Positions 5,531 to 53,108 of a stretch of 64,000 bases of DNA are shown here, in pieces (position 1 is the stretch's first letter; each line of letters begins with the position of its first letter). A program made the translations under genes and the position numbers. The notes under the pieces were generated by a model. The model was not told the origin of the DNA, ran no database searches, and saw nothing but the letters and a program-made list of their open reading frames with translations. Source of the DNA: Petrolisthes cinctipes. Lineage: Eukaryota > Arthropoda > Malacostraca > Decapoda > Porcellanidae. The stretch is from NCBI GenBank assembly GCA_033782935.1, contig JAWQEG010000004.1:2046001-2110000 (forward strand), written 5' to 3'.

Positions 5531-8269
5531 AAAAATCGATATTTTAGGTGCCCAAAAGTCGATATGTGCATGTATCTTCTGTACCCGTTTATATCTCAAT
5601 TTCTGGCTCAAAACACCTGAAAATTCGATATTTTGGGATCCCAGAAGCGATCTGTACATGCCTACTCAGTGCTAGAATATTTTCAAAATATAGGCCCAAA
5701 ACATGCTTAAAATCGATATTTTAGGTGCCCAAAGTCGATATCTCATATTCAGGCCCATAACACCCAAAAATTCGATATTTTGGGGTCCCAGAAGCGATCT
5801 GTACATGCCTACTCCGTGTTAGAGTATTTTCAAAATACAGGCCCAAAACATACAGAAAATCGATATTTTAGGTGTCCAAAGTCGATATGTGCATGCATCT
5901 TCTGTAACCGTTTATATCTCAAATTCAGGCTCAAAACACCGGAAAATTCGGTATTTGTGGGTCCTAGAAGCGATCTGTACATGCCTACTCCTAGTTAGAA
6001 TGTTTTCAAGATACAAACCCAAAACATCCTCAAAATCAATATTTTAGGTGCCCAAAAGTCGATATGTACATGCATCTTCTGTACCCGTTTATATCTCAAA
6101 TTCAGGCTCAAAACACCCGAAAATTCGATATTTTGGGGTCCCAGAAGCGATCTGTACCTGCCCACTCAGGGCTAGAATATTTTTAAAATATAGGCTCAAA
6201 ACATGCTAAAAATCGATATTTTAGGTGTCCAAAGGCTATATGTGCATGCATCTTCTGTACCCGTTTATATCTCAAATTCAGGCTCAAAACACCCGAAAAT
6301 TCGGTATTTTTGGGTCCTAGAAGCGATCTGTACTTGACTACTCCTAGTTAGAATGTTTTCAAGATACAAACCCAAAACATGCTCAAAATCGATAATTTAG
6401 GTGCCCAAAAGTCGATATGTGCATGGATCTTCTGTACCTGTTTATATCTCAAATTCAGGCTCAAAACACCCGAAAATTCGATATTTTGGGGTCACAGAAG
6501 TGACCTGTACATGCCTACTTAGTGCTAGAATATTTTCAAAATATAGGCCCAAAACATGCAAAAAATCAATATTTTAGGTGCCCAAAGTCGGTATTTCAAA
6601 TTCAGGCCCAAAAAACCGAAAATTCGATATTTTGGGGTCCCAGAGGCGGACTGTACATGCCTACTCCGTGTTTGAGTATTTTCAAAGTACAGGCCCAAAA
6701 CATACTGAAAATCAAACTTTTAGGTGCCCAAAAGTCGATATGTGCATGCATCCTCTGTACCCGTATATATCTCAAATTCAGGCTCAAAACACCCAAAAAT
6801 TCGATATTTTGGGGTCTCAGAAGCTATCTGTACTTGCCTACTCCGTATTAGAGTATTTTCAAAATACAGGCGCAAACATGCTGAAAATCGATATTTTAGG
6901 TGACCAAAGTCGATATGTGCATGCATCTTCTGTACCCGTTTATATCTCAAATTCAGGCTTAAAACACCCGAAAATTCGATATTTTAGGGTCTAAGAAGTG
7001 ATCTGTACATGCCTACTTAGTGCTAGAATATTTTCAAAATATAGGCCCAAATCATGCTAAAAATCGATATTTTAGGTGCATAAAGTCGATATCTCAAGTT
7101 CAGGCCAAAACACCTGAAAATTCGATATTTTGGGGTCCCAGAAGCAAACTGTACATGCCTACTACGTGTTAGAGTATTTTAAATATACAGGCCGAAAACA
7201 TACTGAAAATCGAATCTTTAAGGTGACCAAAAGTCGATATGTGGATGCATCTTCTGTACCCGTTTATATCTCAAATTCAGGCTCCAAACACCCGAAAATT
7301 CGATATTTTGGGGTCCCAGAAGCGATCTGTACTTGCCTACTCCGTGTTAGAGTATTTTCAAAATACAGGCCCAAAACATGCTGAAAATCGATATTTTAGG
7401 TGACCAAAGTCAATATGTGGATGCATCTTCTGCACCCGTTTATATCCCAAATTCAACCTCATATTACCCGAAAATTCGATATTTTTGGGTCCCAGAAGCG
7501 ATCTGTACATGTCTACTCAGTGATAGAATTTTTTCAAAACATAGGCTCAAAACATGCTAAAAATCGATATATTAAGTGTCCAAAGTCGATATGTGCATGC
7601 ATCTTCTGTACCAGTTTATATCTCAAATTCAGGCTCAAAACACCCGAAAATTAGATATTTTGGGGTCCCAGAAGTGATCTGTACAGGCCTACTTAGTGCT
7701 AGAATATTTTCAAAATATAGGCCCAAAACATGCTAAAAATCGATTATTTAGGTGCCCAAAGTCGATATCTCAAATTCAGGCCCAAAACACCCGAAAATTC
7801 GATATTTTGGTGTCCCAGAAGCAAACTGTACATGCCTACTTCATGTTAGAGTATTTTCAAAATACAGGCCCAAAACATACTGAAAATCGATCTTTTAGGT
7901 GCCCAAAAGTCGATATGTGCATGCATCTTCTGTAACCGTTTATATCTCAAATTCAGGCTCCAAACACCCGAAAATTAAAAATTTTGGGGTCCCAGAAGCA
8001 ATCTGTACTTGCCTACTCAGATACAGGCCCAAAACATGCTAAAAATCGTTATTTTTGGTGCCCAAAGTCAATATGTGTATGCATCTTCTGCACCCGTTTA
8101 AATCCCAAATTCAACCTCAAAATACCCGAAAAATCGATATTTTTGGGTCCCAGAAGCGATCTGTATATGCCTACTCAGTGCTAGATTGTTTTTAAAATAT
8201 AGGCTCAAAACATGCTAAAAATCGATATTTTAGGTGTCCAAAGTCGATATGTGCATGCATCTTCTGTAC

Positions 8270-9200: not shown

Positions 9201-12200
9201 CACTCATGGCTAGAATATTTTTAAAATATAGGCCCAAAACATGCTAAAAATCGATAATTTAGGTGCCCAAAGTCGATATCTCAAATTCAGGCCCAAAACA
9301 CCCGAAAATTCGATATTTTGGGGTCCCAGAAGCGAACTGTACATGCCTACTCAGTGTTAGAGTATTTTCAAAATACAGGCCCAAAACATACTGAAAATCG
9401 ATCTTTTAGGTGTCCAAAAGTCGATATGTGCATACATCTTCTGTACCCGTTTATATCTCAAATTCAGGCTCCAAACACCTGAAAATTCGATTTTTTGGGG
9501 TCCCAGAAGCCATCTGTACTTGCCTACTCCGTGTTAAAGTATTTTCAAAATACAGGCCCAAAACATGCTGAAAATCGATATTTTAGGTGCCCAAAGTCAA
9601 TACGTGTATGCATCTTCTGCACTCGTTTATGTCTCAAATTCAGGCTCCAAACACCCGAAAATTCGATATTTTGTGGTCCCAGAAGCGATCTGTACATGCT
9701 TACTCAATGCATGAATGTTTTCAAAACATAGGCTCAAAACATGATAAAAATCGATATTTTAAGTGTCCAAAGTCGATATGTGCATACATCTTCTGTACCA
9801 GTTTATATCTTAAATTCAGGCTCAAAACACCCGAAAATTCGATATTTTGGGGTCCCAGAAGTGATCTGTACATGCATACTTAGTGCTAGAATATTTTCAA
9901 AATATAGGCCCAAAAAATGCTAAAAATCGATTATTTAGGTGCCCAAAGTCGATATCTCAAATTCAGTCCCAAAACACCCGAAAATTCGATATTTTGGGGT
10001 CCCAGAAGCGAACTGTACATGCCTACTCAGTGTTAGAGTAATTTTAAAGTACACGCCCAAAACATACTGAAAATCGATCTTTTAAGTGTCCAAAGTCGAT
10101 ATGTGCATGCATCATCTGTACCCGTATATATCTCAAATTCAGGCCCAAAACACCCGAAAATTCGATATTTTGGGGTCCCAGAAGCGATCTGTACATGCCT
10201 ACTCCGTGTTAGAGTATTTTCAAAATACAGGCCCAAAACATACAAAAAATCGATATTTTAGGTGACCAAAGTCGATATGTGAATGCATCTTCTGTACCCG
10301 TTTATATCTCAAATTCAGGCTTAAAACACCCGAAAATTCGATATTTTAGGGTCCCAGAAGTGATCTGTACATACCTACTTAGTGCTAGTATATTTTAAAA
10401 ATATAGGCCCAAAACATGCTAAAAATCGATATTTTAGGTGACCAAAGTCGATATCTCAAGTTCAGGCCAAAACACCCGAAAATTCGATATTTTGGGGTCC
10501 CAGAAGGGAACTGTACATGCCTACTCCTTGTTTGAGTATTTTCAAAGTACAGGCCCAAAACATACTGAAAATCAAACTTTTAGGTGCCCAAAAGTCGATA
10601 TGTGCATGCATCTTCTGTACCCGTTTATATCTCAAATTCAGGCTTCAAACACCCGAAAATTAAATATTTTGGGGTCCCAGAAGCAATCTCTACATGCCTA
10701 CTCAGATACAGGCCCAAAACATGCTGAAAATCGATATTTTAGGTGCCCAAAGTCAATATGTGTATGCATCTTCTGCACTCGTTTATATCTCAAATTTAAC
10801 CTCAAAATACCCGAAAATTCGATATTTTAAGGTCCCAGAAGCGATCTGTACATGCCTACTCAGTGCTAGAATGTTTTCAAAATATAGGCTCAAAACATGC
10901 TATAAATCGATATTTTAAGTGTCCAAAGTCGATATGTGCAGGCATCTTCTGTGCCGGTCTATATCTCAAATTCAGGCTCAAAACACCCGAAAATTCGGTA
11001 TTTTTGGGTTCTAGAAGCGATCTGTACATGCCTACTCCTAGTTATAATGTTTTCATGATACACACCCAAAACATGCTCAAAATTGATATTTTTGGTGACC
11101 CAAAAGTCGATATGTGCATGCATCTTCAGTACCTGTTTATATCTCAAATTCGGGCTCAAAACACCCGAAAATTTGATATTTTTGCGTCCCAGAAGCGATC
11201 TGTACATGCCTACTCCGTGTTAGAGTATTTTCAAAATACTGGCCCAAAACATGCTGAAAATCGATATTTTAGGTACCCAACTCAATATGTGCATGCATAT
11301 TCTGTTCCCGTTTATATCTCAATTTCTGACTCAAAACACCTGAAAAATCGATATTTTGCGATCCCAGAAGCGATCTGTACATGCCTACTCAGTGCTAGAA
11401 TATTTTCAAAATATAGGCCCAAAACATGCTTAAAATCGATATTTTAGGTGCCCAAAGTCGATATCTCACATTCAGGCCCAAAACACCCGAAAATTCGATA
11501 TTTTGGGGTCCCAGAAGCGATCTGTACATGCCTACTCCGTGTTAGAGTATTTTCAAAATACAGGCCCAAAACATACAGAAAATCGAAATTTTAGGTGTCC
11601 AAAGTCGATATGTGCATGCATCATCTGTTCCCGTATATATCTGAAATTCAGGCCCAAAACACCCGAAAATTCGATATTTTGGGGTCCCAGAAGCGATCTG
11701 TATGTGCCTACTCCGTTTTAGATTATTTTCAAAATACAGGCCCAAAACATACAAAAAATCGATATTTTAGGTGCCCAAAAGTCGATATGTGCATGCATCT
11801 TCTTAAAACGTTTATATCTCAAATTCAGGCTCCAAACACCCGAAAATTCGATATTTTGGGATCCCAGAAACGATCTGTACATGCGTACTCAGATACAGGC
11901 CCAAAACATGTTGAAAATCGATAATTTAGGTGCCCAAAGTCAATATGTGAATGCATCTTCTGCACCCTTTTAAATCCCAAATTCAACCTCAAAACACCCG
12001 AAAATTCGATATTTTTCGGTCCCAGGAGCAATCTGTATATGCCTACTCAGTGCTAGATTGTTTTTAAAATATAGGCTCAAAACATGCTAAAAATCGATAT
12101 TTTAGGTGTCCAAAGGCTATATGTGCATGCATCTTCTGTATCCGTTTATATCTCAAATTCAGGCTCAAAACACCCGAAAATTCGGTATTTTTGGGACCTA

Positions 12201-17009: not shown

Positions 17010-19297
17010 TACCCGTTTATATCTCAAATTCAGGCTTAAAACACCCGAAAATTCGATATTTTAGGGTCCCAGAAGTGATCTGTACATGCCTACTCCTAGT
17101 TATAATGTTTTCAAGATACACACCCAAAACATGCTCAAAATTGATATTTTTGTTGACCCAAAAGTCGATATGTGCATGGATCTTCAGTACCTGTTTATAT
17201 CTAAAATTCAGGCTCAAAACACCCGAAAATTTGATATTTTTGCGTCCCAGAAGCGATCTGTACATGCCTACTCCGTGTTAGAGTATTTTCAAAATACCGG
17301 CCCAAAACATGCTGAAAATCGATATTTTAGGTGCCCAACTCAATATGTGCATGCATATTCTGTTCCCGTTTATATCTCAATTTCTGGCTCAAAAACACCT
17401 GAAAATTCTATATTTTGCGATCCCAGAAGCGATCTGTACATGCCTACTCAGTGCTAGAATATTTTCAAAATATAGGCCCAAAACATGCTTAAAATCGATA
17501 TTTTAGGTGCCCAAAGTCGATATCTCACATTCAGGCCCAAAACACCCGAAAATTCGATATTTTGGGGTCCCAGAAGCGATCTGTACATGCCTACTCCGTG
17601 TTAGAGTATTTTCAAAATACAGGCCCAAAACATACAGAAAATCGATATTTTAGGTGTCCAAAGTCGATATGTGCATGCATCTTCTGTACCCGTTTATATC
17701 TCAAATTCAGGCTCAAAAAACCCGAAAATTAGGTATTTGTGGGTCGTAGAAGCGATCTGTACATGCCTACTCCTAGTTAGAATGTTTTCAAGATACAAAC
17801 CCAAAACATCCTCAAAATCAATATTTTAGGTGCCCAAAAGTCGATATGTGCATGCATCTTCTGTACCCGTTTATATCTCAAATTCAGGCTCAAAACACCC
17901 AAAAATTCGATATTTTGGGGTCCCAGAAGCGATCTGTACATGCCCACTCAGTGCTAGAATATTTTTAAAATATAGGCCCAAAACATGCTAAAAATCGATA
18001 ATTTAGGTGCCCAAAGTCGATATCTCAAATTCAGGCCCAAAACACCCGAAAATTCGATATTTTGGGGTCCCAGAAGCGAACTGTACATGCCTACACCGTG
18101 TTAGAGTATTTTCAAAATACAGGCCCAAAACATACTTAAAATCGATCTTTTAGGTGTCCAAAAGTCGATATGTGCATACATCTTCTGTACCCGTTTATAT
18201 CTCAAATTCAGGCTCGAAACACCTGAAATTCGATATTTGGGGTCCCAGAAGCCGACTGTACTTGCCTACTCCTTGTTAGAGTATTTTCAAAATACAGGCC
18301 CAAAACATGATGAAAATCGATATTTTAGGTGACCAAAGTCAATATGTGTATGCATCTTCTGCACCCGTTTATATCCCAAATTCAACCTCAAAACACCCGA
18401 AAATTCGGTATTTTTGGGTTCTAGAAGCGATCTGTACATGCCTACTCCTAGTTATAATGTTTTCAAGATACACACCCAAAACATGCTCAAAATTGATATT
18501 TTTGGTGACCCAAAAGTCGATATGTGCATGCATCTTCAGTACCTGTTTATATCTCAAATTCAGGCTCAAAACACCCGAAAATTTGATATTTTTGCGTCCC
18601 AGAAGCGATCTGTACATACCTACTCCGTGTTAGAGTATTTTCAAAATACCGGCCCAAAACATGCTGAAAATCGATATTTTAGGTGCCCAACTCAATGTGT
18701 GAATGTATATTCTATTCCCGTTTATATCTCAATTTCTGGCTCAAAACACCTGAAAATTCGATATTTTGGGATCCCAGAAGCGATCTGTACATGCCTACCC
18801 AGTGCTAGAATATTTTCAAAATATAGGCCCAAAACATGCTTAAAATCGATATTTTAGGTGCCCAAAGTCGATATCTCACATTCAGGCCCAAAACACCGGA
18901 AAATTCGATATTTTGGGGTCCCAGAAGCGATCTGTACATGCCTACTCCGTGTTAGAGTATTTTCAAAATACAGGCCCAAAACATACAGAAAATCGATATT
19001 TTAGGTGTCGAAAGTCGATATGTGCATGCATCTTCTGTACCCGTTTATATCGCAAATTCATGCTCAAAACACCCGAAAATTCGGTTTTTGTGGGTCCTAG
19101 AAGCGATCTGTACATGCCTACTCCTAGTTAGAATGTTTTCAAGATACAAACCCAAATCATCCTCAAAATCAATATTTTAGGTGCCCAAAAGTCGATATGT
19201 GCATGCATCTTCTGTACCCGTTTATATCTCAAATTCAGGCTCAAAACACCCGAAAATTCGGTATTTTGGGTTCCCAGAAGCGATCTGTACATGCCCA
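17010..19297 (+). repeat. Duplicated block, 1352-bp offset
   Basis: About 17010-17945 is repeated at 18362-19297. The landmarks 17017, 17309 and 17545 correspond to 18369, 18661 and 18897. The pair ends where the first copy reads CCCACTCAGTGCTAGAAT and the second reads CCCACTCAGATACAGG, a switch from a full to an 18-bp-deleted unit. The interval between the copies (17946-18361) is ordinary array sequence. Confidence 0.78.
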
Positions 19298-19493
19298 CTC
19301 AGATACAGGCCCAAAACATGCTGAAATCCGATATTTTAGGTGTCCAAAGTCGATATGTGCATGCATCTTCTGTACCCGTTTATATCCCAAATTCAACCTC
19401 AAAACACCCAAAAATTCGATATTTTTGGGTCCCAGAAGCGATCTGTATATGCCTACTCAGTGCAAGAGTGTTTTTATAATATAGGCTCAAAAC

Positions 19494-19757
19494 ATGCTAA
19501 AAATCGATATTTTAGGTGTCCAAAGTCGATATGTGCATGCATCTTCTGTACCCGTTTATATCTCAAATTCAGGCTCAGAACACCCGAAACTTCGGTATTT
19601 TAGGTGTCCAAAGTCGATATGTGCATGCATCCTCTGTATCCGTTTATATCTCAAATTCAGGCTCGAAACACCCGAAAATTCGATATTTTGGGGTCTCAGA
19701 AGCGATCTGTACTTGCCTACTCCGTGTTAGAGTATTTTCAAAATACAGGCCCAAAAC
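19494..19757 (+). repeat. 264-bp unit made of three half-units
   Basis: The distance between successive unit starts here is 264 bp, exactly 176 plus 88. The sequence begins as a normal half A, enters half B (ACCCGAAACTTCGGTATTTT), then passes without a break into half A again (AGGTGTCCAAAGTCGATATG), runs through a second A and ends with a normal half B. The switch falls inside the CGATATTTT-like stretch shared by both halves. This is what an out-of-register exchange between A and B would leave, and it supports the reading that the 176-bp unit is an old 88-bp dimer. Confidence 0.93.
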
Positions 19758-21623
19758 ATGCAGAAAATCGATAGTTTAGGTGACCAAAGTCGATATATGT
19801 ATGCATCTTCTGTACCCGTTTATATCTCAAATTCAGGCTTAAAACACCCGAAAACTCGATATTTTAGGGTCCCAGAAGTGATCTGTACATGCCTACTTAG
19901 TGTTAGAATATTTTCGAAATATATTGGCCCAAAACATGCTAAAAATCGATATTTTAGGTGCCCAAAGTCGATATCTCAAGTTCATGCCAAAACACCCGAA
20001 AAATTCGATATTTTGGGGTCCCAGAAGCAAACTGTGCATGCCTACTCCGTTTTAGAGTATTTTCAAAATACAGGCCCAAAACATACTGAAAATCGATCTT
20101 TTAGGTGCCCAAAAGTCGATATGTGCATGCATCTTCTCTACCCGTTTATATCTCAAATTCAGGCTCCAAACACCCGAAAATTCAATATTTTGGGGTCCCA
20201 GAAGCAATCTGTACATGCCTACTCAGATACAGGCCCAAAACATGCTGAAAATTGATATTTTAGGTGCCCAAAGTCAATATGTGTATGCATCTTCTACACT
20301 CGTTTATATCTCAAATTCAACCTCAAAATACCCGAAAATTCGATATTTTTGGGTCCCAGAAGCGATCTGAACATGCCTAATCAGTGCTAGAATCTTTTCA
20401 AAATATAGGCTCAAAACATGCTATAAATCGATATTTTAAGTGTCCAAAGTTGATATGTGCTTGCATCTTCTGTGCCCGTCTATATCTCAAATTCAGGCTC
20501 AAAACACCGGAAAATTCGGTATTTTTGGGTTTTAGAAGCTATCTGTACATGCCTACTCCTAGTTATAATGTTTTCATGATACACACCCAAAACATGCTCA
20601 AAATCGATATTTTTGGTGACCAAAAGTCGATATGTGCATGCATCTTCAGTACCTGTTTATATCTCAAATTCAGGCTCAAAACACCCGAAAATTCGATATT
20701 TTTGGGTCCCAGAAGCGATCTGTACATGCCTACTCCGTGTTAGAGTATTTTGAAAATTCAGGCCCAAAACATGCTGAAAATCGATGTTTTAGGTGCCCAA
20801 CACAATATGTGCATGCATCTTCTGTACCCGTTTAAATCTCAAATTCAGGCTCAAAACACCCGATAATTCGGTATTTGTGGGTCCTAGAAGCGATCTGTAC
20901 ATGCCTACTCCTAGTTAGAATGTTTTCAAGATACAAACCCAAAAAATCCTTAAAATCAATATTTTAGGTGCCCAAAAGTCGATATGTGCATGCATCTTCA
21001 GTACCCGTTTATATCTCAAATTCAGGCTCAAAACACCCGAAAATTCGATATTTTGGGGTCCCAGAAGCGATATGTACATGCCCACTCAGTGCTAGAATAT
21101 TTTTAAAATATAGGACCAAAACATGCTAAAAATCGATATTTTAGGTGCCCAAAGTCGATATCTTAAATGTAGGCCCAAAACACCCGAAAATTCGATATTT
21201 TGGGGTCCCAGAAGCGAACTGTACATGCCTACTCCGTGTTAGAGTATTTTCAAAATACAGGCCCAAAACATACTGAAAATCGATCTTTTAGGTGCCCAAA
21301 AGTCGGTATGTGCATACATCTTCTCTACCCGTTTATATCTCAAATTCAGGCTGCAAACACCCAAAAATTCGATATTTTGGGGTCCCAAAAGCCATCTGTA
21401 CTTGCCTACTCCGTGTTTAGAGTATTTTCAAAATACAGGCCCAAAACATGCTGAAAATCGATATTTTAGGTGACCAGAGTCAATATGTGTACGCATCTTC
21501 TGCACCCGTTTATATCCCAAATTCAACCTCAAAACACCCGAAAATTCGATATTTTGGGGTCCCAGAAGTGATCTGTACATGCCTACTTAGTGCTAGAATA
21601 TTTTCAAAATATAGGCCCAAAAC

Positions 21624-23394
21624 ATGCTAAAAATCGATATTTTAGGTGCCAAACTCGATATCTCAAATTCAGGCCCAAAACACCCGATAATTCGATATTT
21701 TGGGGTCCCAGAAGTGAACTGTACATGCCTACTCCTAGTTAGAATATTTTCAAGATACAGACCCAAAACATGCTCAAAATCGATATTTTAGGTGTCCAAA
21801 AGTCGATATGTGCATGCATCTTCAGTACCTGTTTATATCTCAAATTCAGGCTCAAAACACCCGAAAATTCGGTATTATTGGGTCCTAGAAGCGATCTGTA
21901 GTTAGAATGTTTTCAAGATACAGACCCAAAACATGCTCAAAATCGATCTTTTAGTTGCCCAAAAGTCGATAAGTGCATGCATCTTCTGTACCCGTTTATA
22001 TCTCAAATTTAGGCTCAAAACACCCGAAAATTAAATATTTTGGGGTCCCAAAAGTGATCTGTTCATGCCTACTTAGTGATAGAATATTTTCAAAATATAG
22101 GCCCAAAACTTCCTAAAAATCGATATTTTAGGTGCCCAAAGTCGATATCTCAAATTCAGGCTCAAAACTCCCGAATATTCGATATTTTGAGGTCCCAGAA
22201 GCGATATGTACATGCCTACTCCGTTTTAGAGTATTTTCAAAATACCGGCCCAAAACTTGCTGAAAATCGATATTTTAGGTGCCCAAAGTCAATATGTGCA
22301 TGCATTATCTGTACCCGTTTATATCTCAAATTCAGGCTCAAAACACCCGAAAATTCGATATTTTGGAGTCCCAGAAGCGATCTGTTCATGCCTTCTCAGA
22401 TACAGGCCCAAAACTTGCTGAAAATCGATATTTTAGGTGCCCAAAGTCAATATGTGTATGCATCTTCTACACCCGTTTATATCCGAAAATCAACCTCAAA
22501 ACACACGAAAATTCGATATTTTTGGGTCCCAGAAGCGATCTGTACATGCCTACTCAGTTCTAGAATGTTTTCAAAATATTGGCTCAAAACATGCTAAAAA
22601 TCGATATCTTAAGTGCCCAAAGTCGATATCATAAATTCAGGCCCAAAAACCCGAAATTTCGATATTTTGGGGTCCCAGAAGCTATCTGTACATGCCTACT
22701 CCGTGTTAGAGTATTTTCAAAATACTGGCCCAAAACATACAGAAAATCGATATTTTAGGTGCCCAAAAGTCGATATGTGCATGCATCTTCTGTACCCGTT
22801 TATATCTCAAATACAGGCTCCAAACACCCGAAAATTCAATATATTGGGGTCCCAGAAGCGATATGTACATGCCTACCCAGATATAGGCCCAAAACATGCT
22901 GAAAATCGATATTTTAGGTGCCCAAAGGCAATATGTGTATGCATCTTCTGCACCTGTTTATATCCCAAATTCAACCTCAAAACACCTGAAAATTCGATAT
23001 TTTTGGGTCCCAGAAGCGATCAGTACATGCCTACTCAGTGCTAGAATGTTTTCAAAATAAAGGCTCAAAACATGCTAAAAATCGATATTTTAAGTGTCAA
23101 AAGTCGATATGTGCATGCATCTTCTGTACCCGTTTATATCTCAAATTCAGGCTCAAAACACCCGAAAATTCGATATTTTGGGGTCTCAGAAGTGATCTGT
23201 ACATGCCTACTCAGTGCTAGAAGATTTTCAAAGTATTGGCCCAAAACATGCTAAAAATCGATATTTTAGGTGCCCACAGTCGATATCTCAAATTCAGGCC
23301 CAAAACACCCGAAAATTTGATATTTTGGGGTCCCAGAAGTGATCTGTACATGCCTACTTAGTGCTAGAATATTTTCAAAATATAGGCCCAAAAC
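21624..23394 (+). repeat. 11-monomer higher-order repeat, 1771 bp, copy 1
   Basis: The next copy begins exactly 1771 bp later. Unit lengths, read in copy 2, are 146, 163, 177, 147, 158, 176, 146, 159, 176, 176 and 147 bp, which sum to 1771. Copy 1 has this order but is the most diverged of the three: for example CAAAACTTCCTAAAAATCG where copies 2 and 3 read CAAAATTTCCTAAAAATCA. Similarity to copy 2 extends about 90 bp upstream of 21624 and stops near 21535. Confidence 0.93.
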
Positions 23395-23540
23395 ATGCTA
23401 AAAATCGATCTTTTAGGTGCCAAAGTCGATATCTCAAATTCAGGCCCAAAACACCCGATAATTCGATATTTTGGGGTCCCAGAAGTGAACTGTACATGCC
23501 TACTCCTAGTTAGAATGTTTTCAAGATACAGACCCAAAAC

Positions 23541-23703
23541 ATGCTCAAAATCGATATTTTAGGTGTCCAAAAGTCGATATGTGCATGCATCTTCAGTACC
23601 TGTTTATATCTCAAATTCAGGCTCAAAACACCCGAAAATTCGGTATTATTGGGTCCTAGAAGCGATCTGTAGTTAGAATGTTTTCAAGATACAGGCCCAA
23701 AAC
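23541..23703 (+). repeat. Representative 163-bp monomer (14 bp lost from half B)
   Basis: The unit reads GATCTGTAGTTAGAATG where others have GATCTGTA, then CATGCCTACTCCTA, then GTTAGAATG. The same deletion is seen near 21897, 23667, 25438, 27262 and 29868, always next to a GGTATTATTGGGTCC variant. All five copies therefore share one origin. Three of them are successive copies in the 1771-bp higher-order repeat. The two near 27262 and 29868 are outlying relatives. Confidence 0.9.
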
Positions 23704-24027
23704 ATGCTAAAAATCGATCTTTTAGTTGCCCAAAAGTCGATAAGTGCATGCATCTTCTGTACCCGTTTATATCTCAAATTCAGGCTCAAAACACCCCAAA
23801 ATTCGATATTTTGGGGTCCCAAAAGTGATCTGTTCATGCCTACTTAGTGATAGAATATTTTCAAAATATAGGCCCAAAATTTCCTAAAAATCAATATTTT
23901 AGGTGCCCAAAGTCGATATCTCAAATTCAGGCTCAAAACTCCCGAATATTCGATATTTTGAGGTCCCAGAAGCGATATGTACATGCCTACTCCGTTTTAG
24001 AGTATTTTAAAAATACCGGCCCAAAAC

Positions 24028-24185
24028 TTGCTGAAAATCGATATTTTAGGTGCCCAAAGTCAATATGTGCATGCATTTTCTGTACCCGTTTATATCTCAA
24101 ATTCAGGCTCAAAACACCCGAAAATTCGATATTTTGGAGTCCCAGAAGCGATCTGTTCATGCCTTCTCAGATACAGGCCCAAAAC
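24028..24185 (+). repeat. Representative 158-bp monomer (18 bp lost from half B)
   Basis: The end of the unit reads CCTTCTCAGATACAGGCCC (CCTACTCAGATACAGG in most copies) instead of CTACTCAG, then TGTTAGAGTATTTTCAAA, then ATACAGG. The loss removes the left arm and centre of the 15-bp dyad, so this class lacks the hairpin-capable motif. It recurs across the window, for example near 670, 1505, 5335, 13255, 22400, 34265 and 62000. It is normally followed by a unit carrying GTCAATATGTGTATGC, which shows that type order is inherited in blocks. Confidence 0.9.
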
Positions 24186-25018
24186 TTGCTGAAAATCGAT
24201 ATTTTCGGTGCCCAAAGTCAATATGTGTATGCATCTTCTACACCCGTTTATATCCGAAAATCAACCTCAAAACACACGAAAATTCGATATTTTTGGGTCC
24301 CAGAAGCGATCTGTACATGCCTACTCAGTTCTAGAATGTTTTCAAAATATTGGCTCAAAACATGCTAAAAATCGATATCTTAAGTGCCCAAAGTCGATAT
24401 CATAAATTCAGGCCCAAAAACCCGAAATTTCGATATTTTGGGGTCCCAGAAGCTATCTGTACATGCCTACTCCGTGTTAGAGTATTTTCAAAATACTGGC
24501 CCAAAACATACAGAAAATCGATATTTTAGGTGCCCAAAAGTCGATATGTGCATGCATCTTCTGTACCCGTTTATATCTCAAATACAGGCTCCAAACACCC
24601 GAAAATTCAATATATTGGGGTCCCAGAAGCGATATGTACATGCCTACCCAGATATAGGCCCAAAACATGCTGAAAATCGATATTTTAGGTGCCCAAAGGC
24701 AATATGTGTATGCATCTTCTGCACCTGTTTATATCCCAAATTCAACCTCAAAACACCTGAAAATTCGATATTTTTGGGTCCCAGAAGCGATCAGTACATG
24801 CCTACTCAGTGCTAGAATGTTTTCAAAATAAAGGCTCAAAACATGCTAAAAATCGATATTTTAAGTGTCAAAAGTCGATATGTGCATGCATCTTCTGTAC
24901 CCGTTTATATCTCAAATTCAGGCTCAAAACACCCGAAAATTCGATATTTTGGGGTCTCAGAAGTGATCTGTACATGCCTACTCAGTGCTAGAAGATTTTC
25001 AAAGTATTGGCCCAAAAC

Positions 25019-25165
25019 ATGCTAAAAATCGATATTTTAGGTGCCCACAGTCGATATCTCAAATTCAGGCCCAAAACACCCGAAAATTTGATATTTTGGG
25101 GTCCCAGAAGTGATCTGTACATGCCTACTTAGTGCTAGAATATTTTCAAAATATAGGCCCAAAAC
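25019..25165 (+). repeat. Representative 147-bp monomer (29 bp lost from half A)
   Basis: This class reads GTCGATATCTCAAATTCAGG where a full unit has GTCGATAT, then 29 bp including the TGCATGCA palindrome, then CTCAAATTC. The missing piece is bounded by ATAT on both sides (cgATAT...tttATATctc), so a short-homology deletion explains it. The class creates a GATATC (EcoRV) site absent from long units. It occurs throughout both arms, usually with GGCCC rather than GGCTC downstream, so it is one old lineage rather than repeated independent loss. Confidence 0.92.
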
Positions 25166-26279
25166 ATGCTAAAAATCGATCTTTTAGGTGCCAAAGTCGA
25201 TATCTCAAATTCAGGCCCAAAACACCCGATAATTCGATATTTTGGGGTCCCAGAAGTGAACTGTACATGCCTACTCCTAGTTAGAATGTTTTCAAGATAC
25301 AGACCCAAAACATGCTCAAAATCGATATTTTAGGTGTCCAAAAGTCGATATGTGCATGCATCTTCAGTACCTGTTTATATCTCAAATTCAGGCTCAAAAC
25401 ACCCGAAAATTCGGTATTATTGGGTCCTAGAAGCGATCTGTAGTTAGAATGTTTTCAAGATACAGGCCCAAAACATGCTAAAAATCGATCTTTTAGTTGC
25501 CCAAAAGTCGATAAGTGCATGCATCTTCTGTACCCGTTTATATCTCAAATTCAGGCTCAAAACACCCCAAAATTCGATATTTTGGGGTCCCAAAAGTGAT
25601 CTGTTCATGCCTACTTAGTGATAGAATATTTTCAAAATATAGGCCCAAAATTTCCTAAAAATCAATATTTTAGGTGCCCAAAGTCGATATCTCAAATTCA
25701 GGCTCAAAACTCCCGAATATTCGATATTTTGAGGTCCCAGAAGCGATATGTACATGCCTACTCCGTTTTAGAGTATTTTAAAAATACCGGCCCAAAACTT
25801 GCTGAAAATCGATATTTTAGGTGCCCAAAGTCAATATGTGCATGCATTTTCTGTACCCGTTTATATCTCAAATTCAGGCTCAAAACACCCGAAAATTCGA
25901 TATTTTGGAGTCCCAGAAGCGATCTGTTCATGCCTTCTCAGATACAGGCCCAAAACTTGCTGAAAATCGATATTTTCGGTGCCCAAAGTCAATATGTGTA
26001 TGCATCTTCTACACCCGTTTATATCCGAAAATCAACCTCAAAACACACGAAAATTCGATATTTTTGGGTCCCAGAAGCGATCTGTACATGCCTACTCAGT
26101 TCTAGAAGATTTTCAAAGTATTGGCCCAAAACATGCTAAAAATCGATATTTTAGGTGCCCACAGTCGATATCTCAAATTCAGGCCCAAAACACCCGAAAA
26201 TTTGATATTTTGGGTTCCCAGAAGCGATCTGTACATGCCTACTGCGTGTTAGAGTATTTTCAAAATACAGGCCCAAAAC
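25166..26279 (+). repeat. 1771-bp higher-order repeat, copy 3, shortened by four monomers
   Basis: Follows copy 2 through unit lengths 146, 163, 177, 147 and 158. Its sixth unit then starts as unit 6 and ends as unit 10: AGTTCTAGAAGATTTTCAAA joins the two. The final 147-bp unit follows. The length is 1114 bp, exactly 657 bp (units 146+159+176+176) less than a full copy. The joined unit keeps the 176-bp length, so the event was an in-register homologous exchange or deletion between two units of the same repeat. Confidence 0.93.
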
Positions 26280-28452
26280 ATGCTGAAAATCGATATTTTA
26301 GGTGACCAAAAGTCGATATGTGCATGCATCTTCTGTACCCGTTTATATCTCAAATTCAGGCTCAAAACACCCGAAAATTCGATATTTTGGGGTCCCAGAA
26401 GCGATCTGTACATGCCTACTCCGTGTTAGAGTTTTTTGAAAATATAGGCCTAAAACATGCTGAAAATCGATATTTTAGGTGCCCAAGGTCAATATGTGCA
26501 TGCATTTTCTGTACTCGTTTATATCTCAAATTCAGGCTCAAAACATCCGAAAATTCGATTTTTTTTGGGTCCCAGAAGCCATCTGTACTTGCCTACTCCG
26601 TGTTAGAGTATTTTTAAAATACAGGCCCAAAACATGCTGAAAATCGATATTTTAGGTGACCAAAGTCAATATGTGTATGCATCTTCTGCACCCGTTTATA
26701 TCCCAAATTCAGCCTCAAAACACCCGAAAATTCGATATTTTTTGGTCCCAGAAGCGATCTGTACATGCCTACTCAGTGCTAGAATGTTTTTAAAACATAG
26801 TCTCAAAACATGCTAAAAATCGATATTTAAAGTTTTCAAAGTCGATATGTGTATGCATCTTCTGTACCCGTTTATATCTTAAATTCAGGCTCAAAACACC
26901 CGAAAATTAGATATTTTGGGGTCCCAGAAGTGATCTGTACATGCCTACTTAGTGCTAGAATATTTTCAAAATATAGGCCCAAAACATACTAAAAATCGAT
27001 CTTTTAGGTGCCCTAAGTCGATATCTCAAATTCAGGCCCAAAACACCCGAAAATTCGATATTTTGGGGTCCCATAAGTGAACTGTACATGCTTACTCCTA
27101 GTTAGAATGTTTTCATGATACAGACCCAAAATATGCTCAAAATTGATATTTTAGGTGCCCAAAAGTCGATATGTGCATGCATCTTCAGTACCTGTTTATA
27201 TCTCAAATTCAGGCTCAAAACACCCGAAAATTCGGTATTATTGGGTCCTAGAAGCAATCTGTAGTTAGAATGTTTTCAAGATACAGACCCAAAACATGCT
27301 CAAAATCGATATTTTAGGTGCCTAAAAGTCGATATGTGCATGCATCTTCTGCACTCGTTTATATCTCAAATTCAACCTCAAAATACCCGAAAATTCGATA
27401 TTTTTGGGTCCCAGAAGCGATCTGTACATGCCTAATCAGTGCTAGAATGTTTTCAAAAAAATAGGCTCAAAACATGCTATAAAGAGATATTTTAAGTGTC
27501 CAAAGTCGATATGTGCATGCATCTTCTGTGCCCGTCTATATCTCAAATTCAGGCTCAAAACACCCGAAAATTCGGTATTTATGGGTTTTAGAAGCGATCT
27601 GTACATGCCTACTCTTAGTTATAATGTTTTAAAGATACACACCCAAAACATGCTCAAAATCGATATTTTTGGTGCCCAAAAGTCGATATGTGCATGCATC
27701 TTCAGTACCTGTTTATATCTCAAATTCAGGCTCAAAATACCCGAAAATTCGATATTTTGGGGTCCCAGAAGCGATCTGTACATGCCTTCTCCGTGTTAGA
27801 GTATTTTCAAAATACAGGCCCAATACATGCTGATAATCGATATTTTAGGTGCCCAACTCAATATGTGCATGCATTTTCTGTACCCGTTTATATCTCAATA
27901 TCAGGCTCAAAACACCCGAAAATTCGATATTTTGGGATCCCAGAAGCAATCTGTACATGCCTACTCAGTGCTAGAAATTTTTCAAAATATAGGCCCAAAA
28001 CATGCTAAAAATCGATATTTTAGGTGCCCAAAGTCGATATCTGAAATTCAGGCCCAAAACAACCGAAAATTCGATATTTTGGGGTCCCAGAAGCGATCTG
28101 TACATGCCTACTCTGTGTTAGAGTATTTTCAAAATACAGGCCCAAAACATGCTGAAAATCGATATTTTAGGTGCCCAACCCAATATGTGCATGCATCTTC
28201 TGTACCCGTTTATATCTCAAATTCAGGATCAAAACACCCGAAAATTCGGTATTTGTGGGACCTAGAAGCGATCTGTACATGCCTACTCCTAGTTAGAATG
28301 TTTTCAAGATACAAACCCAAAACATCCTCAAAATCAATATTTTAGTTGCCCAAAAGTCGATATGTGCATGTATCTTCTGTACTCGTTTATATCTCAAATT
28401 CAGGCTCAAAACACCCGAAAATTCGATATTTTGGGGTCCGAGAAGCGATATG

Positions 28453-28454: not shown

Positions 28455-28480
28455 CACTCTCCCAAAAAAGTATCGGCATT
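28455..28480 (+). repeat. Left terminal inverted repeat (26 bp)
   Basis: Starts CACTCTCCCAAAAAAGTATC and is perfectly complementary, in reverse, to 29364-29389. The match stops sharply: AAAACG follows on the left, whereas the right end has GCTAGC when read inward. Perfect identity between the two ends suggests the insertion is not very old. Confidence 0.95.
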
Positions 28481-28751
28481 AAAACGAATGAACGAAAACG
28501 ACAATAAACGTAGCATTATGGTACATTGCTTTGAAACCTTATAGATAGTGGTATTCCTGCCGATCAGTTGCCAATTATACATATTCGTATTGCTTCATGA
28601 GTCAGAGAAACTATAGTAGATGCAAATCGAAACATATTCGCATTTCTTCACCCATTAGAGAAATTTCAAATATTATCGTAAGATTTGTCCCTTTCTAATG
28701 CTGAAAATTCAGCTAATCCACACCGTAGTTGCCGAATGGTATATAACGTTA
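28481..28751. other. Element interior, left part: no gene seen
   Basis: Unique AT-rich sequence between the left terminus and the T-rich tract. Apart from the 12-bp subterminal site I see no recognisable gene, RNA gene or repeat. Two similar phrases, ACATATTCGTATTGCTTCA (about 28578) and ACATATTCGCATTTCTTCA (about 28632), form a short imperfect direct repeat about 54 bp apart. Confidence 0.6.
28549..28560 (+). repeat. Subterminal inverted repeat, left copy (12 bp)
   Basis: TGGTATTCCTGC, exactly inverted at 29294-29305. It sits at a similar distance from its own end (94 bp against 84 bp). Paired subterminal sites are common as transposase-binding sites in Tc1/mariner and CACTA families; that role here is inference. 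Confidence 0.65.
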
Positions 28752-28796
28752 TCTTTCTTTTTATTTATTTTATTTTATTTTTACTTTTTTTATATA
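28752..28796 (+). other. T-rich tract inside the element
   Basis: About 45 bases made almost wholly of T with single A or C interruptions (TTTATTTATTTTATTTTATT and similar), ending in TATATA. It has no coding potential. It resembles low-complexity sequence that grows by slippage. It could also be read as an A-rich tail on the opposite strand, but no retroelement body is recognisable beside it. Confidence 0.7.
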
Positions 28797-28814
28797 CCTC
28801 TACCTCGGGACAGG

Positions 28815-28845
28815 AGGCCGTCAGTCGTGGCCTGAGATTGAGGCC
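28815..28845 (+). other. GC-richer segment with alternating AGGCC/GGCCT arms
   Basis: AGGCC at 28815, GGCCT at 28829 and AGGCC at 28841 can pair in two alternative small hairpins (loops of 9 and 7 bases). The surrounding 28805-28880 stretch is clearly richer in G+C than the rest of the element. I see no RNA polymerase III box and no tRNA fold, so I make no functional claim. Confidence 0.4.
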
Positions 28846-28880
28846 CAGAGATTATCGAGTGAAGCTTTGAGGTGTTGGTT

Positions 28881-29293
28881 GCTTCACATGTTTGTTTATA
28901 CACGTCACTTTCTGGAGAGGACAATGTCTGTTTGTGTTGCTTTACAAAACCTTATTTAGAAGTATGAGAAGAAAAAGCATAAGCCTACTTAATCCTACCC
29001 TATGCTATAACTGCATTATATTTAAGACAAAATACTACAGTTACAGCGAATCTACTCAAAGATTCCTTTTTGGTTAAAATCCGATTTGGTAACTTTATTC
29101 TCTGGGTTATCATTCTCATTATATTTAATAATTCAGTAAATTCCCCCTCCCCAAAAACCATCAATCATTAAAATTACATACCGTATATCGGTAAAAATGA
29201 AGTCACAACTCTTACTCCACAACTTGCCTAATGCATGAATTATGTATGCTAGAGGATTTCACGTTAGTACAGAAATGAGTCAACTCATTGCCA
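28881..29293. other. Element interior, right part: no gene seen
   Basis: Unique AT-rich sequence. An open frame at 28892-29077 (61 codons) has no recognisable domain and no support beyond being open. A C-rich run, ATTCCCCCTCCCCAAAAACC near 29141, is the only compositional oddity. Nothing else can be supported. Confidence 0.55.
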
Positions 29294-29305
29294 GCAGGAA
29301 TACCA
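29294..29305 (-). repeat. Subterminal inverted repeat, right copy (12 bp)
   Basis: GCAGGAATACCA, the exact reverse complement of 28549-28560. The flanking bases are not conserved, so the match is a discrete 12-bp block, not the tail of a longer terminal repeat. Confidence 0.65.
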
Positions 29306-29363
29306 ACCCCACAGTACAGTCATACATGTAGCTTCAATCTTTTCTCAGCATGATCTAGCTAGC

Positions 29364-29389
29364 AATGCCGATACTTTTTTGGGAGAGTG
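29364..29389 (-). repeat. Right terminal inverted repeat (26 bp)
   Basis: Begins AATGCCGATACTTTTTTGGG on the given strand and ends GAGAGTG directly before the TA at 29390. It is an exact inverted match to the left end over all 26 bases. Just inside it lies CTAGCTAG, a small palindrome with no left-end counterpart. Confidence 0.95.
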
Positions 29390-51490: not shown

Positions 51491-53108
51491 ACATGCCTAC
51501 TCAGTGCTAGAATATTTTCAAAATATAGGCCCAAAACATACTAAAAATCGATATTTTAGGTGCACAAAGTCGATATCTCAAATTCAGGCCCAAAACACCC
51601 GAAAATTCGATATTTTGGGGTCCCAGAAGCGATCTGTACATGCCTACTCGGTGTTAGAGTATTTTCAATATACAGGCCCAAAACATACTGAAAATCGATC
51701 TTTTAGGTGCCCAAAAGTCGATATGTGGATGCATCTTTTGTACCCGTTTATATCTCAAATTCAGGCTCCAAACACCCTAAAATTCAATATTTTGAGGTTC
51801 CAGAAGCGAACTGTACATGCCTACTCCGTGTTAGAGTATTTTCAAAATACAGGCCCAAAACATACTGAAAATCGATCTTTTAGGTGCCCAAAAGATGATA
51901 TGTGCATGCATCTTCTGTACCCGTTTATATCTCAAATTCAGGCTCCAACCAACCGAAAATTCGATACTTTGGGGTCCCAGAAGTGATCTGTACATGCCTA
52001 CTCAGTGCTAGAATATTTTCAAAATAAAGGCCCTAAAACATGCTAAAAATCTATCGGATATTTTAGGTGCACAAAGTCGATATCTCAAATTCAGGCCCAA
52101 AACACCCGAAAATTCGATATTTTTTGGTCCCAGAAGCGATCTGTACATGCCTACTCAGTGCTAAAATGTTTTCAAAATATAGGCTCAAAACATGCCAAAA
52201 ATCGATATTTTAAATGTCCAAAGTCGATATGTGCATGCATATTCTGTACCCGTTTATATCTCAAATTAAGGCTCAAAACTCCCGAAAATTCGGTATTTTT
52301 GGGTCCTAGAAGCGATCTGCACATGCCTACTCCTAGTTAGAATGTTTTCAAGATACAAACCCAAAACATGCTCAAAATCGAATTTTAGGTGCCCAAAAGT
52401 TGATATATGAATTCATTTTCTGTACCCGTTTATATCTCAAATTCAGGCTCAAAACACCCGAAAATTCGATATTTCGGGGGTCCCAGAAGCGATCTGTACA
52501 TACCCACTCAGTGCTAGAATATTTTCAAAATATAGGCCCAAAACATGCTAAAAATCGATATTTTTGGTGCTCAAAGTCGATATCTCAAATTAAGGCCCAA
52601 ATCACCCGAAAATTCGATATTTTGGGGTCCCAGAAGGGATATGTACATGCCTACTCCGTATTAGAGTAATTTCAAAATACAGGCCCAAAACATGCTGAAA
52701 ATCGATATTTTAGGTGACCAAAGTCAATATGTGCATGCATCTTCTGTACCCAAAAGATGCTGAAAATCGATATTTTAGGTGCACAAAGTCAATATGTGTA
52801 TGTATCTTCTTTACCCGTTTATATTTCAATTTCAGGCTCAAAACACCCCAAAATTCGATATTTTGGGGTCCCAGAAGCGACCTGTACATGCCTACTCAGT
52901 GCTAGAATGTTTTCAAAATATAGTCTCTAAACATGCTAAAAATCGATATTTTAAGTGTCCAAAGTCGATATGTGCATTCATCTTCTGTACCCGTTTATAT
53001 CTTAAATTCAGGCTCAAAACACCCGAAAATTCGATATTTTGGGGTCCCAGAAGTGATCTGTACATGCCTACTCAGAGCTAGAATGTTTTCAAAATATAGG
53101 CTCAAAAC
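51184..53108 (+). repeat. 12-unit block of 1925 bp, start of a partial repeat
   Basis: Unit lengths 177, 177, 147, 177, 178, 152, 176, 177, 148, 64, 176 and 176 sum to 1925. The block start recurs at 53109, and sequence from about 50935-51790 matches 52860-53715. Shared rare marks are ATGCCTTACTCCTAGTAAG (1-bp insertion) and CTCGGTGTTAGAGTATTTTC. The second copy runs only about 600 bp past 53109 before diverging. The 152-bp unit carries an insertion giving CTATCGGATATTTTAGG near 52052. Confidence 0.85.
52693..52756 (+). repeat. 64-bp truncated monomer
   Basis: The shortest unit noted. The sequence passes from TGCATCTTCTGTACCC directly to AAAAGATGCTGAAAATCG, losing 112 bp: the end of half A and all of half B. 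CCC is present on both sides of the loss (TACCCG upstream, GGCCCAAAAG at the other side in a full unit), so a short-homology deletion is likely. Confidence 0.9.

Follow-up and report, generated by a model that had tools for sequence, protein, structure and literature searches.

The stretch of Petrolisthes cinctipes DNA analysed here, 64,000 nucleotides long and referred to below as the window, lies within a dimeric satellite array, and at one place in it the array departs from its 176-bp period with a unit of 264 bp. We consider that this unit arose when the two diverged halves of the satellite underwent a rare unequal exchange, offset by half a unit, and place the probability of this reading at roughly three in four. 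Junctions of the same kind, as well as of the reciprocal kind, were observed on other contigs of the genome. We saw no function for the 264-bp unit, which we regard as an outcome of array turnover.

The window (G000:C4:2046001-2110000, in an assembly of 1.48 Gb and 9385 contigs) consists of one array of 377 unit segments, the single interruption of which is an insert at about 28455-29389.

1-64000, + strand: dimeric satellite array (Tandem Repeats Finder, profile segmentation).

The array extends at least 60 kb past both ends of the window. This gives 184 kb of contiguous sequence, assembled without gaps, that is 99.5% satellite and contains 1096 starts of the first half (A), the units running head to tail throughout. 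The majority of the window units measure 174-181 bp. A class of 146-148 bp (80 of the 377) repeatedly shows a 29-bp gap in half A, bordered on either side by ATAT, and these short units are scattered through the window in a higher-order patchwork; another of 158-159 bp (29 of the 377) has a recurring 18-bp gap in half B, where CTCAG is joined to ATACAGG. A local higher-order repeat with a block spacing of 1771 bp occupies about 22263-27000 (158-bp units at 22263, 24034 and 25805). Several units have lost 22-23 bp between two TCGATAT copies inside half A (63017 in the window; loci L015-L018), and in a 65-bp unit at 52698-52762 an off-register loss of 111 bp joins A position 52 to B position 76 at 52751. 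The insert (935 bp, 28455-29389) sits in a half B with TA on both sides and has perfect 26-bp terminal inverted repeats, the first letters of which are CACTCTCCC; it is probably a DNA-transposon-like element, one without a known name.

Three other possibilities regarding the array were set aside. An olive-like plant satellite had been suspected from the TaqI-type TCGA motif, and the genome gave no match to the chlorophyll-binding family PF00504. Certain blocks of high identity begin where the 29-bp gap has its edge; in one of seven such pairs the block edge just reflects a full unit aligned to a 147-bp unit. The A31 to B87 and A32 to B3 switches found in the 184 kb look, by eye, like small inserts and not like exchange between A and B. 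A scan of the unit with a CENP-B box pattern of 9 key bases gave at best 7 of the 9 at two places; 682 of 3000 shuffled units did equally well, so that the match is not above chance.

The 176-bp unit is composed of two 88-bp halves, A and B, the consensus sequences of which are identical at 59 of 88 positions. The sequence-only reading had claimed about two-thirds identity by hand alignment, and had proposed a shuffling control and a tree of the halves; the claimed identity holds. In 2000 shuffles the mean was 22.8 matches (SD 4.05) and the maximum 36, well below 59. When the unit was shifted against itself, 118 of 176 positions matched at a shift of 88, and the runner-up shift gave 61. For comparisons of individual halves we took the near-complete ones (287 of 380 A segments and 337 of 378 B segments, the dropped remainder being mainly gapped units). 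Mean identities within the window were 0.897 for A-A, 0.863 for B-B and 0.609 for A-B pairs; the best A-B pair (0.727) was below the worst A-A pair (0.750) and above the worst B-B pair (0.705). In the FastTree analysis a single edge with a support of 1.0 split the 287 A from the 337 B halves into separate clades with no errors, and the chimeric half described below grouped with A. Alternation of A and B holds across the 184 kb, save for the switches named in this report. Judging from their similarity, A and B evidently descend from a common 88-bp ancestor.

A profile model with free jumps placed a single half-register switch in the window; it lies at 19599|19600, where position 11 of B is followed by position 12 of A. 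The elements of the resulting unit are as follows.

19500-19763, + strand: 264-bp unit made of A, a chimeric half and B (profile segmentation; Tandem Repeats Finder, period 264).
19500-19587, + strand: half A, 88 bp (segmentation; taken at 19494-19581, its best copy in the window is 98.9% identical).
19588-19599, + strand: start of a half B, positions 0-11, CGG variant (segmentation; sequence read directly).
19596-19601, + strand: TATTTT, the 6-bp stretch that holds the B-to-A switch (direct reading, segmentation).
19600-19675, + strand: rest of a half A, positions 12-87, 76 bp (segmentation; closest ordinary A 95.9%).
19676-19763, + strand: half B, 88 bp (segmentation).

A unit of 3 x 88 bp had been pointed out at 19494-19757, which is the same unit with its start placed 6 bases earlier. 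Tandem Repeats Finder gave a period-264 row at 19298-19892, the sole such row among 150 of its 240 rows. That the crossover lies inside a stretch shared by A and B was also correct, but this stretch is shorter than the one that had been named: because the B parent had CGG where CGA would otherwise stand, the two parents have only TATTTT in common there. The switch is unique among the 377 window units and also among the 1096 units of the 184 kb, and loosening the jump penalty to -7 added one weak candidate, at 6597. No half-register switch was found in 458 units on eight other contigs, which had been chosen for matching the 264-bp query.

We also compared the flanks of the junction with the rest of the array. 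The left flank (18800-19599) aligns without gaps to, for example, 11390-12189 at 92.25% identity, and the right flank (19600-20400) aligns to 10082-10879 at 94.4%, whereas the best match spanning the junction is only 83.5% identical with 22 gaps. As the two flanks match different places of the array and the match across the junction is poor, we concluded that two array contexts were joined at 19599|19600. These flank identities are no higher than those of ordinary neighbours, which indicates that the event in the window is not recent; likewise, no close local source was found for it, none of the matches being better than ordinary neighbours.

Genome-wide, the 33-letter B-to-A junction has 28 exact matches, spread over 13 contigs; allowing up to 3 mismatches raises the number to 3481, a level that takes in ordinary variants. 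Within the 184 kb the same pattern has no match at up to 2 mismatches and 6 at up to 3. Of the 28 exact loci we fetched 20, and all of them contained the +88 unit, the changeover falling at matching positions of the two halves. By their 200-bp flanks, these 20 loci fall into seven families (eight at a 97% cut), to which the window adds one. All three loci fetched from the 1-mismatch hits switched from A87 to A0, a kind close to the one sought, and they seem to belong to a single family. In two of the seven families the sequence right of the junction has a close copy upstream: in one, where the event itself can be seen, 440 bp away (5 x 88, or 2.5 units) at L037 (98.3%) and L040 (97.3%), and in the other 235 bp away (147 + 88) at L044 (92.5%). 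Five of the seven fetched families showed no close source within about 1.5 kb (12 of the 20 loci tested).

The reciprocal A-to-B junction, which shortens the array by 88 bp, has 67 exact matches, spread over 36 contigs, and 566 when up to 2 mismatches are allowed. The switch was seen in all 16 fetched loci of these 67, which represent 12-13 flank families, and 15 of them continue in B. The remaining one, L052, returns to A after 19 bases and is in register on both sides, resembling a conversion-like patch of B within an A half. L058, L060 and L064 switch in register a second time, from A56 to B57, where little sequence is shared, and L049, L050 and L055 carry an additional off-register switch.

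It had been proposed that A and B can still recombine. The recurrence of the exchange and the presence of reciprocal products in differing flanks support this proposal, but the exchange is rare and left no conversion tract in the window. At 28 sites diagnostic for A or B, the 624 near-complete window halves carry at most 2 consecutive alleles of the wrong type, and just 6 of them carry 2; conversion between A and B is therefore not visible in the window. As for the rarity, the ordinary B-to-A boundary, searched with the same form of pattern, has 162,163 exact matches in the genome, so that the exact junctions (28 and 67) amount to about 2 to 4 in 10,000 ordinary boundaries, amplified copies included. 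An exact ordinary boundary was present at 143 of the 1096 A starts on contig C4 and at 15 of 458 elsewhere. From the exact boundaries and these two samples we arrived, very roughly and with a wide range, at an estimated genome total of ~1.2 to 5 million units, or 0.2 to 0.9 Gb; on this rough bracket ~14 to 58% of the assembly may consist of the satellite. The satellite is in any case abundant, with matches on many contigs.

The above results suggest the following course of events. An 88-bp ancestral repeat would have doubled, and its two copies would have diverged to about two-thirds identity and spread jointly as a 176-bp unit. The B half of one unit may then have paired with the A half of another, the partners being half a unit apart. 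The strand would have changed over inside the longest block common to A and B, and the product, as the structure of the 264-bp unit displays, has gained 88 bp. A reciprocal product without an A half would also arise, and products of this kind are present in the genome. The exchange probably took place by unequal crossing-over between sister chromatids, or else by break-induced template switching, presumably guided by the remaining homology between A and B.

Several observations count against an exchange of this kind: its rarity (1 switch in the 1096 + 458 sampled units), the one window join between different halves that is off register (52751), the position of the window switch in a word that microhomology by itself would also pick, the absence of A-B conversion tracts from the window, and the five of seven B-to-A families without a close local source. 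The chief alternative is microhomology joining or replication slippage, in which a stalled or broken end would have annealed anew at TCGATATTTT or TATTTT as the longest shared word, the register being kept only through the equal position of that word in A and B. We consider this unlikely, although it is the likeliest of the alternatives. TCGATATTTT (10 bp) is the longest word that the consensus unit contains twice, and its two copies are in register. Hence, a switch at this word alone cannot separate homology from microhomology. The window switch, with just 6 bp shared, would suit microhomology, and off-register joins do occur (the 22-23-bp losses between TCGATAT copies, the 111-bp loss at 52751 and the matches to the TCTGTAC join given below).

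For this reason, the switches at other shared blocks are more informative. At the CATGC block, where A and B share 5 bases, B-to-A switches that keep the register had 8 exact matches on 5 contigs, 36 matches at up to 1 mismatch on 17 contigs and 1003 at up to 3; at the CAAAACA block there were 7 exact matches (2 contigs) and 45 at up to 1 mismatch (21 contigs). In contrast, the off-register join at the longer word TCTGTAC (7 bp), the pattern for which uses the left arm of the CATGC pattern, had 2 exact matches on 1 contig, 3 at up to 1 mismatch on 2 contigs and 13 at up to 3. All these counts are of pattern matches alone and are inflated by amplified families, and the matches with 3 mismatches may include variants of other subfamilies. 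In the 184 kb none of the three patterns was found at up to 2 mismatches. The A56 to B57 switches at L058, L060 and L064, which keep the register over little shared sequence, also argue against microhomology. As in-register switches outnumber the off-register join over a longer word, homology-guided exchange is favoured on balance.

If a single ancient chimeric unit had been spread by conversion and amplification, the junctions would be copies of it and not separate events. Amplification has indeed taken place, as in the families L030-L034 plus L041-L043 (C15, C69, C89 and C115) and L035-L040 (C69), and contigs could be haplotypes of one another. However, each of the 25 chimeric A parts compared had an ordinary A as a nearer match than any chimera from a different family, a comparison biased towards this outcome by setting 1416 ordinary halves against far fewer chimeras. 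Moreover, a full A stands behind some of the junctions and a 29-bp-gapped A behind those of L044, L046, L047 and L048, and the junction flanks are as different from one another as ordinary neighbours are. We therefore regard a single origin as improbable.

It is still less probable that the 264-bp unit is an assembly join, as the sequence-only reading had allowed. No second copy of this very unit was present among 40 scored of 1037 candidates in the genome. However, like junctions in both directions occur on other contigs, the break falls exactly in register inside a shared word, and the 184 kb of array were assembled without gaps.

Finally, A and B are of common ancestry, as a relic A-A-B unit from before the 176-bp dimer became fixed would require, but we find this reading very improbable, since the A part of the chimera belongs with the ordinary A halves of today (95.9% to the nearest), its B start carries the CGG variant of present-day B halves, and A and B alternate over the 184 kb apart from the listed switches. 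The unit had also been taken to reveal the origin of the 176-bp period. An 88-bp origin is supported by the similarity of A and B, but the 264-bp unit is not itself proof of it: the unit is secondary, joins halves that had already diverged and holds no trace of a pre-dimer state.

The identity of ~67% between A and B is below the level usually thought to be needed for exchange between repeats. We tentatively suggest, at somewhat less than even odds, that recombination which keeps the register acts at this identity with a perfect match of 5-10 bp at the switch, and often enough for reciprocal products with a gain or a loss of 88 bp to be left all through a satellite of at least a million units. 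Models of satellite evolution assume that out-of-register exchange reshapes repeats. Here the halves A and B serve as built-in markers, with which a single genome can yield counts of half-register exchanges, of the reciprocal products and of the breakpoints. Such counts would measure the divergence limit for exchange and separate homology-guided from microhomology-guided events; if the suggestion is true, this genome offers a natural assay of how far repeats that have diverged strongly still undergo exchange.

In a literature search that covered mainly freely available papers, we recognised no publication describing this satellite. A close parallel is the highly abundant 72-bp satellite of Palorus subdepressus, in which two variant clades alternate in 144-bp dimers (PMC8122249). 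It resembles the present satellite in its abundance, its two clades and its alternating dimer and differs in its periods (72/144 bp versus 88/176 bp); the passages on it in PMC8122249 give no description of half-register exchange. The primate alpha-satellite dimers (SF1-2) also have alternating types, differing by up to about 30%, a higher-order patchwork and homogenisation via unequal crossovers (PMC8122249, PMC2853522), features that they share with the array studied here. However, their unit is about 171 bp, and one member of the dimer bears a CENP-B box, whereas none was found above chance here. The dimer of the Responder (Rsp) satellite of Drosophila joins two related monomers, each about 120 bp long (PMC8122249); its halves are 84% identical, compared with 67% in our case.

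In the satellites of Meloidogyne, switches between diverged monomers occur exactly at a short conserved motif (PMC3694981), in the same way as the junctions described here are positioned at a short conserved word. In that case the motif is a CENP-B-box-like box, and transposition or illegitimate recombination has been proposed (PMC3694981), whereas in the present satellite the block is just the longest word that the two halves have in common, and the counts include switches at other blocks too. Out-of-register exchange as the motor of satellite evolution (Smith), and break-induced replication together with its microhomology-mediated form as routes to it, are in print (PMC8122249, PMC7463522, PMC2853522). 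Half-unit exchange is a known kind of event, to which this satellite adds an unusually countable case.
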